This document shows positions 3,390-17,460 of a stretch of 29,376 bases of DNA, piece by piece. The position numbers and the translations under genes were made by a program. Position 1 is the first letter of the stretch. Each line of letters opens with the position of its first letter. The DNA comes from a virus: IMG/VR virus record IMGVR_UViG_3300024062_000038, positions 1 to 29,376 of that record; one strand, given 5' to 3'. The notes below the pieces were generated by a model. That model was given only the letters and a program-made list of their open reading frames with translations. It searched no databases and was not told the DNA's origin.

Positions 3390-3500
3390 GTGGAAATTAC
3401 TAACAATTTTATTAAAAGCCTTTATCAGATGATGCCGTTCCACGTGGCTAATTTGGTGGAGGCGAATTTTAACCAAAAATTAAATAACTATGGATTATAA
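3390..3500 (+). CDS. Possible GTG-started leader peptide (36 aa)
   Basis: A 36-codon frame starting GTG at 3390 reads MEITNNFIKSLYQMMPFHVA and ends NQKLNNYGL. Internal ATGs at 3429 and 3432 give shorter versions. It overlaps the helicase-methylase start by 11 bases in another frame, so its translation could control entry into that gene. Against it, the start codon is rare, and codons such as ccg and ctt are less usual here. The composition is protein-like, with no stop and no low complexity. It may be a regulatory upstream ORF or chance. Confidence 0.35.
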   Translation: MEITNNFIKSLYQMMPFHVANLVEANFNQKLNNYGL

Positions 3501-5670
3501 ACAATTTTTAGAAACAAAAACAAAAACACATATTAATAGTGGCTTTGAAATTAATGAAAGTGATTTGAATGATAATTTATTCGACTTTCAAAAACATATC
3601 ATTAAAATAGCATTAAAAAAGGGCAGATTTGCAATATTTGAGGATTGTGGATTAGGCAAAACAATACAGCAGTTGAGTTGGGCCACTCAAGTATATAAAA
3701 AAACAAAGCAGAAAGTTTTGATACTTGCTCCATTAGCTGTAGTTGAGCAAACTAAAGATGAAGCAATAAAGTTTAATATTGATCCTGATTGTTTTGATAT
3801 TACTAATTATGATCAATTAAAAAATATTGATTGTAGTTTATATTCAGGAGTTGTATTAGATGAGAGCAGTATTTTAAAAGGCAGGGATGGTAAATTAAGC
3901 AGATTAATAATAGATAGCTTTAAATCAACTCCTTATAAGTTGGCATGTACTGCTACTCCATCTCCAAATGATCACATGGAATTAGGGCAGCATTCTGAGT
4001 TTTTAGGAGCGAGTACCTATTTAGAAATGTTAGCAATGTATTTTGTTCATGATGGAGGAGAAACGTCTAAATGGAGGCTCAGAAAACACGCTCAGGATGA
4101 TTTTTGGAAATATGTATGTACATGGAGCATATCATTGGATAATCCTAAAACATTAGGATTTAACTCTGATGGATATGAATTGCCGGAAATAGAATATATC
4201 GAGCATATTATTCCTGTTGAAAACAATACTCTAACATTATTTGGAGATGTTGCAGTTAGTGCTACAGATTTGCATAAGGATTTAAAAAGGAGTTTTGATA
4301 AAAGGATTAAAAAAACTATTCAATTGGTTAATAATTCCAATGATCAATGGATAATATGGACTTTAAAAAATGATGAAGCTACTGAATTAAATAAAGTTTT
4401 GGATGATTCTATTAATGTGCAGGGATCAGATAAACCTCAAGTAAAGGCAGATAATTTAAATGGATTTGCAAAAAATAAATTTAGAAACTTAATCACTAAA
4501 ACATCAATCGCATCATTTGGTATGAATTATCAACAATGCAATAACATGATATTTACATCTTATGATTTTAAATTTGAGGCATTTTATCAAGCTGTTAGGA
4601 GGTGTTATAGATTCGGTCAAAAAAACAAAGTTAAGGTACATTTATTAGTGCCTGAGAGCCAGGTTAATGTTAGAAAAACAATATTAGAAAAAGAAAAAAA
4701 ACATAAAACAATGATCAGAGAGATGAGTAATTACTCTGCAATAACAGATTATAAATTAAATAAATCAAATGTAATGATAACCAAAAAAGAGATTAAAACA
4801 GATGACTACCATATTATTAATGGAGATTGTGTACAGGAAACGAAAAGATTAAATGCAGATTGTGCGGATTTAATAGTATTTAGTCCTCCTTTTGCTGAGT
4901 TGTATGTATATTCAGACAAGTCAGAGGACATGGGAAATGTATCTAATTATAAGCAATTTGAGCAGCATTTTCAATATTTAATACCGGAACTAAAAAGAAC
5001 ATTAAAAAAAGGCCGGATTTGTGCTGTTCATTGTATGGATTTGCCAATACAAAAAGGAAAGGAGGGCTTTATTGGATTAAGAGATTTTAGCGGAATGTTA
5101 ATAGATTGGTTTACAAAAGAGGGATTTATTTATCATGCCAAAACTACAATATGGAAAAATCCTGTAACTGAAATGCAAAGAACTAAAGCATTAGGATTAT
5201 TGCATAAAACAATAAAAAAAGATAGCTGCATGAGTAGAGTTGGCATTCCTGATTATGTTTTATTTTTTAGAAATGGAGATGGTAACGAAACTCCAATAAC
5301 ACATCAAGATACTAACGAAAATAAGCCGAATTATTTACCTGTTGATTTATGGCAAAAATATGCATCCCCTGTATGGATGGATATTGATTATCGTAGAACT
5401 TTACAATATAGAAGCGGTAGAGATGGTAATGATGAGAAACATATATGCCCTTTGCAATTAGATACTATTGAAAGGATAATACATTTATATTCTAATGAGG
5501 GAGAAACTGTATTATCTCCATTTGGAGGAGTTGGATCAGAGGGATTCCAGGCAATGAAAATGAATAGAAAAAGTATCTCTATTGAGTTAAAAGAGAGTTA
5601 TTTTGCCATCAATAAAAAAAATCATAGAGATTGTATAGTTGAAAAGAATAGCACATTAACATTATTCTAA
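3490..5670 (+). CDS. SNF2-type helicase fused to a beta-class DNA methyltransferase
   Basis: A 726-residue two-enzyme protein. Residues about 28-420 form a superfamily 2 helicase/translocase: Walker A in EDCGLGKTIQQL (near 50-60), Walker B in VVLDESS (near 120), TATPSPNDHMELG (motif III region), and motif VI in QAVRRCYRFGQ (near 366). Residues about 436-720 form an N4-cytosine/N6-adenine methyltransferase: catalytic SPPF (near 465) comes before the AdoMet-binding SPFGGVGSEG (near 675), the order of the beta class. Serines replace the usual aspartates in both motifs. No nuclease domain is seen, so it is more likely protective or epigenetic than a complete restriction enzyme. The MazG-like gene overlaps its stop by one base (TAATG). 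Confidence 0.87.
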   Translation: MDYKQFLETKTKTHINSGFEINESDLNDNLFDFQKHIIKIALKKGRFAIFEDCGLGKTIQQLSWATQVYKKTKQKVLILAPLAVVEQTKDEAIKFNIDPDCFDITNYDQLKNIDCSLYSGVVLDESSILKGRDGKLSRLIIDSFKSTPYKLACTATPSPNDHMELGQHSEFLGASTYLEMLAMYFVHDGGETSKWRLRKHAQDDFWKYVCTWSISLDNPKTLGFNSDGYELPEIEYIEHIIPVENNTLTLFGDVAVSATDLHKDLKRSFDKRIKKTIQLVNNSNDQWIIWTLKNDEATELNKVLDDSINVQGSDKPQVKADNLNGFAKNKFRNLITKTSIASFGMNYQQCNNMIFTSYDFKFEAFYQAVRRCYRFGQKNKVKVHLLVPESQVNVRKTILEKEKKHKTMIREMSNYSAITDYKLNKSNVMITKKEIKTDDYHIINGDCVQETKRLNADCADLIVFSPPFAELYVYSDKSEDMGNVSNYKQFEQHFQYLIPELKRTLKKGRICAVHCMDLPIQKGKEGFIGLRDFSGMLIDWFTKEGFIYHAKTTIWKNPVTEMQRTKALGLLHKTIKKDSCMSRVGIPDYVLFFRNGDGNETPITHQDTNENKPNYLPVDLWQKYASPVWMDIDYRRTLQYRSGRDGNDEKHICPLQLDTIERIIHLYSNEGETVLSPFGGVGSEGFQAMKMNRKSISIELKESYFAINKKNHRDCIVEKNSTLTLF

Positions 5671-14078: not shown

Positions 14079-14099
14079 GAGTAACTATAATTCATAATT

Positions 14100-14133
14100 A
14101 AAGAGGGTGCATATTTGTACCCTCTTTTTTTTT
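14100..14133 (+). terminator. Intrinsic terminator after the capsid gene
   Basis: AAAGAGGGT (14100-14108) is the perfect complement of ACCCTCTTT (14119-14127), giving a 9-bp stem with a 10-base loop followed by nine T residues in total. This is the strongest terminator in the window and ends the portal-protease-capsid transcript. Confidence 0.85.
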
Positions 14134-14140
14134 ACCTTTG
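14114..14140 (+). promoter_or_regulatory. Promoter fused to the capsid terminator
   Basis: TTTG (14114-14117) lies in the terminator loop and TACCTTTG (14133-14140) begins at the last base of its T-run, 15 bases on. Transcription should restart at about 14144 for the connector genes. The overlap of the two signals is very compact. Confidence 0.65.
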
Positions 14141-14157
14141 TAGCAAATCATTTAATT

Positions 14158-14343
14158 ATGGCTAAGAAAAAAACTACAAAAAAGGCATTTAAGGAAACTC
14201 CTGAGAACAAAGCAGAGAAAGTTATCCAGGAAACAAAGAAAGTACCTTACAATGGATTTGTTTCTATGGGAGGAGCAAGGATCAAGATGAGTGAGGCAAA
14301 GGCTCGATTATTAGTTAAAGAGGGAAAGGCTAAATTTGACTAA
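14158..14343 (+). CDS. Small basic protein downstream of capsid (61 aa)
   Basis: A 61-residue lysine-rich protein. The first 30 residues (MAKKKTTKKAFKETPENKAE) are disordered and basic; the second half, VPYNGFVSMGGARIKMSEAK then LLVKEGKAKFD, looks like a small folded domain. It is the first gene after the capsid terminator and promoter; the ATG at 14158 is chosen because an extension to 14107 would begin inside the terminator. Its TAA overlaps the next ATG. Function unknown; a capsid-associated or DNA-contacting role is possible from its charge. Confidence 0.65.
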   Translation: MAKKKTTKKAFKETPENKAEKVIQETKKVPYNGFVSMGGARIKMSEAKARLLVKEGKAKFD

Positions 14344-15211: not shown

Positions 15212-16147
15212 ATGACTTGTTATAATTTAGATATTGGTTGTGCTACAATAAATGTTACCTCTGAGGACATCAGAGTTAAGGTATCAGGCAATGATTTATC
15301 TAATGGCTATTTAGCTGAGAAAGTTGTAGCAGGAACAAACATAACTGTTACAGAGTTGAATGATGGAGGGGTTGAAACTTTGCAGATTTCAGCAAGTGGA
15401 GGTAATACAGATGAGCAAGTAAAAGTATCAGCAAATGATACAACAGCAGGTTATTTAGAGGATAAGATTGTAGGTACTGCTTCAAATATATCTATCACTA
15501 CTTTGAATGATGGAGGAGATGAGGATAGTAAGATTGATTTAATTAATACTGCTGTTACTCCAGGCAGCTATACAAATACTGATTTAACTGTTGATGCTAA
15601 TGGTAGAATTACAGCAGCAAGTAACGGAACAGGCGGAACAGTATCAATAGGTAATTATGCTCAAACTGCAAATAGTGCTACAATAAACACAACAGGAGAG
15701 CAGTCTATTGTAGGTACAGGAGTTGGCTCTCTTTCTATTCCTGCTAATATTTTTGCAGTTGGAGATTCCTTTCATGGAAAGATGGGAGGTTTAATTAATG
15801 CAACAGGAGGCGGTGGTAGGTCTGAAATAACTATAAAAGTAAAAACGGGGACAACTATTTTAGCAAGTACAGGAGTATTTGATTTAGATAATGCTACTAA
15901 TCAAGGTTGGGAGGTTGAATTGGATTTTACTATTGCAGTAATAGGAGCAGCGGGAACTATTTGCACTAATGGTAATTTCGCCTACACAAAGGATAACAAT
16001 AGGCAAGTATTCGGTTACATTTTTCAAGATGTTCAAGCAATAGATACAACAGTAAGTAACACTTTAGATATTACTGTTGAATGGAATGTTTTAAATAGTG
16101 GGGATGATATTTATTCCGCTAATTTTGTATTATATAAAGTGTATTAA
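15212..16147 (+). CDS. Fibre-like or head-decoration protein with duplicated stalk motif
   Basis: A 311-residue probable virion protein. Residues about 20-120 contain two related units: VKVSGNDLSNGYLAEKVVAG followed by TELNDGGVETLQIS, and VKVSANDTTAGYLEDKIVGT followed by TLNDGGDEDSKIDL. Next comes a linker DLTVDANGRITAASNGTGGT, common in phage stalks. From about residue 145 (YAQTANSATINTTGEQSIVG to the end) a beta jelly-roll domain is likely. The motif type belongs to trimeric fibres, but its place between connector genes and tail genes points to a head or neck fibre. Binding partner unknown. Confidence 0.6.
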   Translation: MTCYNLDIGCATINVTSEDIRVKVSGNDLSNGYLAEKVVAGTNITVTELNDGGVETLQISASGGNTDEQVKVSANDTTAGYLEDKIVGTASNISITTLNDGGDEDSKIDLINTAVTPGSYTNTDLTVDANGRITAASNGTGGTVSIGNYAQTANSATINTTGEQSIVGTGVGSLSIPANIFAVGDSFHGKMGGLINATGGGGRSEITIKVKTGTTILASTGVFDLDNATNQGWEVELDFTIAVIGAAGTICTNGNFAYTKDNNRQVFGYIFQDVQAIDTTVSNTLDITVEWNVLNSGDDIYSANFVLYKVY

Positions 16148-16149
16148 AA

Positions 16150-16329
16150 ATGAATCATCAGGATAAAATAGGTTGTGTATTTGCATGGATTCAAGGCCAA
16201 GCATTCTCAACAGGAGTGCTAATATTTACTGAGGATTTACTCAGAGCCTTTTTATTGGGCTTTGTTGGAGGTTTAGGAGGTTTATTTGTTAGATTTATTT
16301 GGAAATCCTTTGAGAAATCAGAAAATTAA
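16150..16329 (+). CDS. Small glycine-rich membrane peptide (59 aa)
   Basis: A 59-codon frame beginning MNHQDKIGCVFAWIQGQAFS. One hydrophobic span at about residues 33-50 (AFLLGFVGGLGGLFVRFIW) has glycines at spacings of three to four, like helix-packing glycine zippers. It starts 2 bases after the fibre-like gene's stop, among virion genes, and is followed by a promoter box. It could be a membrane-active virion component, an injection-related peptide or a holin; none can be proved. The spacing and coding-like composition support it. Confidence 0.5.
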   Translation: MNHQDKIGCVFAWIQGQAFSTGVLIFTEDLLRAFLLGFVGGLGGLFVRFIWKSFEKSEN

Positions 16330-16340
16330 TTCTATTTTTG
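16309..16340 (+). promoter_or_regulatory. Promoter for the candidate small RNA
   Basis: TTTG (16309-16312) and TATTTTTG (16333-16340), 20 bases apart, fit the Bacteroidota pattern. The -33 part lies in the end of the upstream gene and the -7 box lies after its stop. No reading frame follows for more than 400 bases, so it probably drives a non-coding transcript. Confidence 0.55.
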
Positions 16341-16344
16341 TAAA

Positions 16345-16440
16345 AATTATTCTCGGTAATTGTATAAGATTTTAAGATTTGGTATTTTAACCAAATAAAT
16401 TAAAGCCCTTAATAGCCGAGAACTGTTAAGGGCTTTTTTT
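16345..16440 (+). ncRNA. Candidate small RNA with a pseudoknotted terminator
   Basis: Between the promoter box at 16333 and a U-run at 16434-16440 lie about 96 bases without an ORF. Three elements are visible. (1) A 7-bp hairpin ATTTGGT/ACCAAAT (16377-16383 with 16390-16396). (2) An 11-bp terminator stem AAAGCCCTTAA/TTAAGGGCTTT (16402-16412 with 16426-16436). (3) The terminator loop holds CCGAGAA (16416-16422), the perfect complement of TTCTCGG (16350-16356) near the expected 5' end. Together they would form a compact pseudoknot. No Rfam family was recognised. The 16345 start is estimated from the promoter box, not observed. Confidence 0.55.
16402..16440 (+). terminator. Strong intrinsic terminator with a 13-base loop
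   Basis: An 11-bp perfect stem, AAAGCCCTTAA with TTAAGGGCTTT, and T residues through 16440. The loop is longer than usual and contains the sequence complementary to the upstream TTCTCGG. It ends the connector operon or the candidate small RNA. Confidence 0.85.
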
Positions 16441-16751
16441 ATATAAAAGAATAATTATGAATGACGAATTTATTAAATAGTTAAAATAGGATGTATTGAG
16501 TTGATCCATAAAAACAACTTATGACTTATATTGAATGGTATTAAATCCTGCTCTGTTCTACTCCAACAACAGGTACTGCATACTCGAAAGAGTTAATTAA
16601 TACTAAACCAAATAGCCAAAGAGGAAACTCTGAATAAATAAGAAATGGTCGCAGAGGGAATTGTCAATTATAGGTTAAGCCTTTAGGGATGTTCTATTGC
16701 AGAGTTACTTATGCAGTATAAAGGAGAGGTTGTATCTAATTGTTAAATTTG
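16441..16751 (+). ncRNA. Non-coding gap with candidate structured RNA
   Basis: About 310 bases with no ORF over roughly 30 codons in any + frame; stops occur in all three. Possible pairings by eye are: CCTG/CAGG (16547-16550 with 16570-16573) with inner TGTT/AACA; a 9-bp helix TACTGCATA/TATGCAGTA (16574-16582 with 16710-16718); and, enclosed by it, two hairpins with GAAA tetraloops, ACTC-GAAA-GAGT (16582-16593) and AGAG-GAAA-CTCT (16620-16631). The second lies within ACCA/TGGT (16607-16610 with 16646-16649). No promoter box is found inside, so it may be made by read-through. No tRNA, intron or known RNA was recognised. Confidence 0.35.
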
Positions 16752-16759
16752 TACTTTTG
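16730..16759 (+). promoter_or_regulatory. Promoter for the first tail-module gene
   Basis: TTG (16730-16732) and TACTTTTG (16752-16759), spaced by 19 bases, make the best full Bacteroidota promoter match in the window. The ATG at 16765 comes only 5 bases after the box, so the mRNA should be leaderless or nearly so. Confidence 0.7.
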
Positions 16760-16764
16760 TAAAC

Positions 16765-17460
16765 ATGAGAGATATTACTAAAAAAGTTGAGGCAACAATA
16801 GGTAAATTAACGAGAACTGTAACAATAGATTTGATTACAGATTTAGGAGATAGTATCTACAGATTAGATACTTGTTGCACTTATTGGCTCAGGCCTTGTA
16901 AAACTATTACAATAGATTCTGTTGATTATAAAATTCAATCCTTTGTACAAAATGAATCATTAACTATTAAAGGGGATATCCTGCCAACAGCAGCTACATT
17001 TACAATAACTCCTCCCTTTTATAAGCATGGTACTCCAATGGCTACTAATAATGAGTTATTTCATGTTGATAACGATCAGCAGTTGCCATTAGTTTGGCTT
17101 TTAGAGATATTAACGCAAACAGTATTCCAAAATGAGGAGAATCCTTTAGATTATTCAAGTGATTTGAGGTTGTTTTTCCTGGATGAATACGATCCTGAGG
17201 ATGATTTAACCTCTGATATCTATACAGACATTATAAGACCTATGCAGTCAATGGTTGATGAGTTTATAAAAGAGGTTGAAAAGGATGGTAATTATAATGA
17301 TTTAGATGAATATAAGACTATAAATTGGAGTAAATTCGGTGTTTATACTACTAATAAAGGCTCAACATCAAAGGTTTTAGATGCTTATTTATCAGGAATA
17401 GAGGTTAAAATTACCTTAGATATAATGAAAATTGAAAACTGCGATGATTGTGTATGTTAA
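16765..17460 (+). CDS. Hypothetical neck/tail protein (231 aa)
   Basis: Not recognised by a specific family. The 231-residue protein begins with beta strands (KKVEATIGKLTRTVTIDLIT, then SIYRLDTCCTYWLRPCKTIT) and ends with a helical part and a cysteine cluster, NCDDCVC. Its location directly before the probable major tail protein is where tail terminator or tail completion proteins are encoded. The cysteines (CC near 37, the final C..C.C) could form disulfides in the virion or bind metal. It has its own promoter 5 bases upstream. Confidence 0.6.
   Translation: MRDITKKVEATIGKLTRTVTIDLITDLGDSIYRLDTCCTYWLRPCKTITIDSVDYKIQSFVQNESLTIKGDILPTAATFTITPPFYKHGTPMATNNELFHVDNDQQLPLVWLLEILTQTVFQNEENPLDYSSDLRLFFLDEYDPEDDLTSDIYTDIIRPMQSMVDEFIKEVEKDGNYNDLDEYKTINWSKFGVYTTNKGSTSKVLDAYLSGIEVKITLDIMKIENCDDCVC

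Follow-up and report, generated by a model that had tools for sequence, protein, structure and literature searches.

ColE1-type RNA I and RNA II carry hairpin loops of 7 nt that are fully complementary, and the loops of phi29-type pRNA covary. GOLLD and ROOL are phage-encoded non-coding RNAs, of undefined function, that form kissing loops (PMC12286853). In Flavobacterium, independent small RNAs such as Rfp18 of F. psychrophilum are transcribed from sigma-A promoters, whose TAnnTTTG box sits at -12 to -5, and are structured and presumed to act in trans (PMC9723704). The non-coding RNAs found in phages of Bacteroidota have been little explored. Here we describe an intergenic gap in a phage genome where, judging from sequence comparisons, there is fairly likely a gene for a small phage RNA (about 96 nt) that would be transcribed on its own, be stable and act in trans; the candidate is compact, well delimited and under 100 nt.

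The DNA analysed (the window) is the virus record IMGVR_UViG_3300024062_000038, of 29,376 bases. By gene content (terminase, portal, protease, capsid and tape measure) the virus is of siphophage type, and the closest annotated capsid proteins, 41% identical, are those of Flavobacterium phages. The early region contains, at 3490-5670, a 726-aa fusion of a SNF2/DEAD-type helicase with an N6/N4 DNA methylase, and no tRNA was found within the window. When only + strand ORFs of at least 35 aa are considered, the largest inter-ORF gap spans 435 bases (16330-16764), the next ones being 116 and 104 bases; an earlier note on this DNA had singled out the same coordinates as its sole large gap, and both statements hold. 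The gap is preceded by a 59-aa ORF (16150-16329, + strand), with a hydrophobic segment and neither Pfam nor PHROG matches, and followed by the gene for a 231-aa late protein (16765-17460, + strand). Among the distant relatives with sequence spanning this junction, the preceding gene abuts or overlaps the homologue of the 231-aa gene, or leaves fewer than 50 bases, in seven (L011, L014, L019, L026, L028, L031 and L039), and at most about 90 bases are found in L051, indicating that the gap is a trait of the immediate lineage of the window. A single close relative covers this site, IMGVR_UViG_3300028829_001766 (labels L002/L004/L057, G004), and its 59-aa and 231-aa proteins are, respectively, 93% and 95% identical to those of the window. 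The tail-fibre-like protein encoded before the 59-aa ORF (window 15212-16147; L004 9787 and L002 1-319) is 97% identical over its first ~62 residues, with the C-terminal part replaced.

At the start of the gap, using the Bacteroidota consensus TTTG...TAnnTTTG, we identified a promoter-like element on the + strand (16309-16340), overlapping the 59-aa ORF at its 3' end and composed of a -33 TTTG (16309-16312), a 20-nt spacer and the -7 box TATTTTTG (16333-16340). The relative carries TATATTTG at the matching position. From the location of the TAnnTTTG box in Flavobacterium, transcription is predicted to start at 16345. This position is the first base of the 5' hairpin described below, and the same rule places the start of the relative two bases before the aligned stem. 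The bare TAnnTTTG motif is common in the window, with 31 occurrences on the + strand as compared with about 22 expected, so that the argument for a promoter is carried by position and conservation and not by the motif alone. Promoter-like boxes and a very short leader (16744-16764, + strand) also precede the 231-aa gene, with TACTTTTG at 16752 and TAAATTTG at 16744, and the relative carries TACCTTTG at the same place. Thus, of the promoters proposed by the earlier note, a pair at the start of the gap and one at its end, the locations are supported by Bacteroidota-type boxes (16309-16340, and the TAnnTTTG box at 16752), but not the E. coli sigma-70 type, which was rejected because only 7 such promoters were found versus 10.3 expected by chance. 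The strong terminator that it had placed at 16402-16440 was confirmed: with its T-run, the site at 16402-16436 outranks all others in the region, where we counted 4 terminator-like sites versus 0.5 ± 0.6 in shuffles. The terminator of the capsid gene (window 14100-14160, L003 7790-7830, L004 8670-8710) has a hairpin sequence that differs in each close relative, between near-identical flanks.

The unit from promoter to terminator (16309-16442) thus shows a promoter-like box, a conserved structure and a terminator, and the predicted small structured RNA of ~96 nt (16345-16440, + strand) is defined by homology, fold z and paired changes. It consists of three hairpins. H1 (16345-16361, + strand) has the stem AATTA/TAATT and the loop TTCTCGG (16350-16356); in the relative, the stem is AATCA/TGATT, with a compensatory change from T-A to C-G, and the loop is GTTGCAT. 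H2 (16377-16396, + strand; ATTTGG ... CCAAAT) has a 6-bp stem that is invariant in both genomes. H3 (16402-16440, + strand) is the intrinsic terminator hairpin; its loop of 7 nt reads CCGAGAA (16416-16422), and its T-run extends to 16440. Single-strand folding of the RNA unit gave z values of -4.37 for the window and -3.27 for the relative, and RNAalifold predicted H1, H2 and H3 unprompted.

The most stable fold predicted for the RNA of the relative is different, with the two loop regions paired as a long helix. This minimum-energy fold is what would be expected of a cis-acting attenuator, in which pairing of the 5' loop with the loop and flank of the terminator would act as an anti-terminator and control read-through into downstream DNA. 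We consider an attenuator improbable, because the long alternative helix is not predicted for the window RNA, the DNA that follows differs between the two genomes (ORF-poor and unrelated in the window, with three small opposite-strand ORFs in the relative) and both carry a separate promoter-like box for the 231-aa gene.

We compared the DNA between the flanking genes in both genomes. Only about 115-119 bases are shared, on opposite strands and with 68% identity (window 16330-16445, + strand, and L002 1046-930, - strand). The alignment of the RNA units scored 41, as compared with 12.6 ± 2.2 in 300 shuffles, whose maximum was 20, and the rest of the two inserts scored 23 versus 21.0 ± 3.2 in shuffles and is therefore unrelated. 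The RNA unit is thus inverted between flanking genes that are 93-95% identical, although the inversion comes from one metagenomic assembly and an assembly error is possible. Behind the inverted RNA, L002 contains three small ORFs of 52, 25 and 50 aa (495-930, - strand); those of 52 and 50 aa have no Pfam match, and a pattern search found no other occurrence of the 50-aa ORF in IMG/VR.

Since the orientation of the unit and its position relative to the 231-aa gene differ between the genomes, the unit does not appear to be a cis-element of this late gene. Moreover, that it stays intact despite the inversion and the replaced remainder is expected if the RNA gene is self-contained and acts in trans, but not if the unit regulates the late gene in cis or is a plain operon terminator. 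The last of these would reduce the locus to the end of the late operon, followed by spacer DNA that is not conserved and by the next gene's promoter, with hairpins devoid of any further role. H3 is indeed strong, the late transcript would end in a terminator anyway, and a terminator followed by a TAnnTTTG promoter is the usual gene boundary in this genome, as at 14100-14140 after the major capsid gene. However, the unit of the relative points the other way and so ends nothing that comes from the upstream late operon, and the unit follows a promoter-like box in each genome. A plain terminator is therefore rather unlikely, and it also gives no reason for the loop complementarity, with its five double changes, that 39 other terminators of related phages do not show in full.

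The loops of H1 and H3 are perfect 7-base complements in the window, and those of the relative (GTTGCAT and ATGCAAC) are likewise complementary at all seven positions. In the alignment of the two sequences, all seven pairs of this putative kissing helix form in both, five of them changed on both sides and none lost. Together with one pair in H1 and another in H3, seven pairs of the whole RNA are changed on both sides, and 96.9% of the cells of the two-sequence alignment are paired. When the partner was slid by 1-3 columns, only 0-2 double-changed pairs remained. Two sequences are too few for R-scape-type statistics, and the covariation reading takes their common ancestry as a premise. When the 100 upstream bases were subjected to dinucleotide shuffling, a 7-mer complement coinciding exactly with the loop of a 5-bp hairpin arose with a chance per shuffle of 5e-5 for the window and 2e-4 for the relative. 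Additionally, among 41 distinct terminators of related phage loci, only these two have a loop partner matching at 7/7 positions, and one other reaches 6.

The covariation of the loops fits intramolecular and intermolecular pairing alike, and does not separate them. Perfectly complementary, non-palindromic loops on a single RNA are the geometry expected of head-to-tail dimers or rings, as in the phi29 packaging RNA or the quaternary kissing loops of GOLLD and ROOL. Nevertheless, an estimate from helix lengths suggests that the segment joining H1 to H3 is long enough for the loops to pair within one molecule, the RNA is far smaller than GOLLD or ROOL, and it matches neither these nor the pRNA models of Rfam, making assembly between molecules quite improbable.

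The remaining bases of the gap offered no comparable signal. We found no ORF of 30 aa or more, fold signal or homologue in 16441-16743 (+ strand), confirming the stretch of 310 bases without ORFs reported by the earlier note; indeed, none exceeds about 20 codons. A structured RNA in 16445-16764 was rejected for both strands, with fold z values of -0.01 and +1.69, no better than shuffles. No homologue of the remainder was found among phage records, and a decayed protein gene there was rejected, as tblastx against the related phage loci gave nothing significant. These ~310 bases are probably an unconserved remnant, that is, decayed or filler DNA. The proposal of an undescribed phage RNA is accordingly supported in part: the relative provides the compensatory changes that the note had suggested seeking (seven pairs changed on both sides, in one relative), but the RNA does not lie in the 310-base stretch, which is unconserved in the relative and folds no better than shuffles. 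Instead of a large RNA like GOLLD or ROOL, the candidate comprises ~96 nt of what the note had treated as leader and terminator at the boundary.

We then searched for further members. The covariance models of Rfam, another of the checks that had been suggested, produced no gathering-level match in the whole window and none in the gap at E values up to 5, and thus no family for it. Three pattern scans of IMG/VR, requiring near-identical H2 and/or H3, recovered only the relative and chance matches; the latter, considered as third members, were rejected because they belong mostly to one unrelated family and have no terminator after the motif. As these scans demand near-identical H2 or H3 sequences, diverged members could have escaped them. 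A covariance model built from the two RNA sequences found no convincing third member in 62 sequence sources or in ~800 Flavobacteriales genomes, where the eight best alignments were plain terminators without complementary loops; the weak matches in relatives that were checked by eye also lacked complementary loops. There was no significant match in a collection of 50,697 phage records either. Duplex scans of the translation-start regions of the two phages themselves identified no antisense target common to both.

These searches also bear on a role in counter-defence, with the RNA serving as a mimic of CRISPR repeats (Racr; described in PMC10651486), a tracrRNA mimic or a decoy. The RNA is small and solitary and sits in an accessory slot, and the nearest annotated relatives of the phage infect Flavobacterium, hosts that can carry type II-C CRISPR (PMC10309648). 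Against this, our RNA model gave no repeat-like match in the ~800 Flavobacteriales genomes, only plain terminators, and we identified no cas or anti-CRISPR gene beside the RNA, and so regard this role as very improbable.

Because of the inversion, regulation of the neighbouring gene in cis is disfavoured, and a stable small RNA acting in trans is the best explanation of the locus. Such an RNA would be transcribed by the host RNA polymerase from a sigma-A promoter, with H1 sealing its 5' end and H3 its 3' end. Within one molecule, both loops would kiss through a 7-bp loop-loop helix, producing a compact RNA that may resist exonucleases. During infection, its trans action could consist of pairing with a target RNA or of binding a protein. 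More speculatively, and with low confidence, the RNA could belong to an undescribed class of small phage RNAs, with the H1 and terminator loops forming a 7-bp kissing helix; this helix would serve as a switchable lock, which a target or partner RNA opens, or would build multimers between molecules during infection. The predicted structure is directly testable with loop-swap mutants.

The slot occupied by the RNA lies between the tail-fibre-like and 59-aa genes on one side and the 231-aa late gene on the other, and the unit may be an accessory cassette in this variable slot. This idea is supported by other junctions in the same phages that take cassettes: a moron with a PAPS-reductase domain (PF01507) and its own TAnnTTTG promoter-like box lies between the capsid-gene terminator and the next gene in the close relatives L003 (7850-8680) and L005 (about 3929-4759), and is absent from the window (14079-14160) and from L004. 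The presence of the RNA in both orientations between genes that are 93-95% identical suggests that such RNAs are exchanged among phages as accessory cassettes, much as protein morons are.

Among the known systems, we rejected a type III toxin-antitoxin of the ToxIN kind, since the gap contains no tandem repeats like those of ToxI and no toxin-sized ORF follows the terminator. The candidate resembles GOLLD and ROOL in being phage-encoded and non-coding, with putative kissing loops and an undefined function; these are, however, much larger (many GOLLD exceed 800 nt) and often lie near tRNA islands, whereas ours, of ~96 nt in a tRNA-free window, has no Rfam match, no length of several hundred nt and no tRNA neighbourhood. 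It is in a size class similar to that of phi29-type pRNA and likewise has two complementary loops (PMC5340915), but the loops of pRNA pair between molecules around a three-way junction, whereas the candidate is predicted to have three hairpins in a row, the last of them a terminator, and lies in a genome of siphophage type that has a terminase, with no pRNA match in Rfam. In ColE1, the complementary loops belong to two RNAs, transcribed from opposite strands, and here both are on the same RNA. With the independent small RNAs of Flavobacterium, the candidate shares the TAnnTTTG promoter, a structured body and a presumed action in trans; those RNAs, however, are chromosomal and conserved across the genus, whereas the phage RNA was found in two genomes only and is distinguished by its covarying 7-nt kissing-loop pair.
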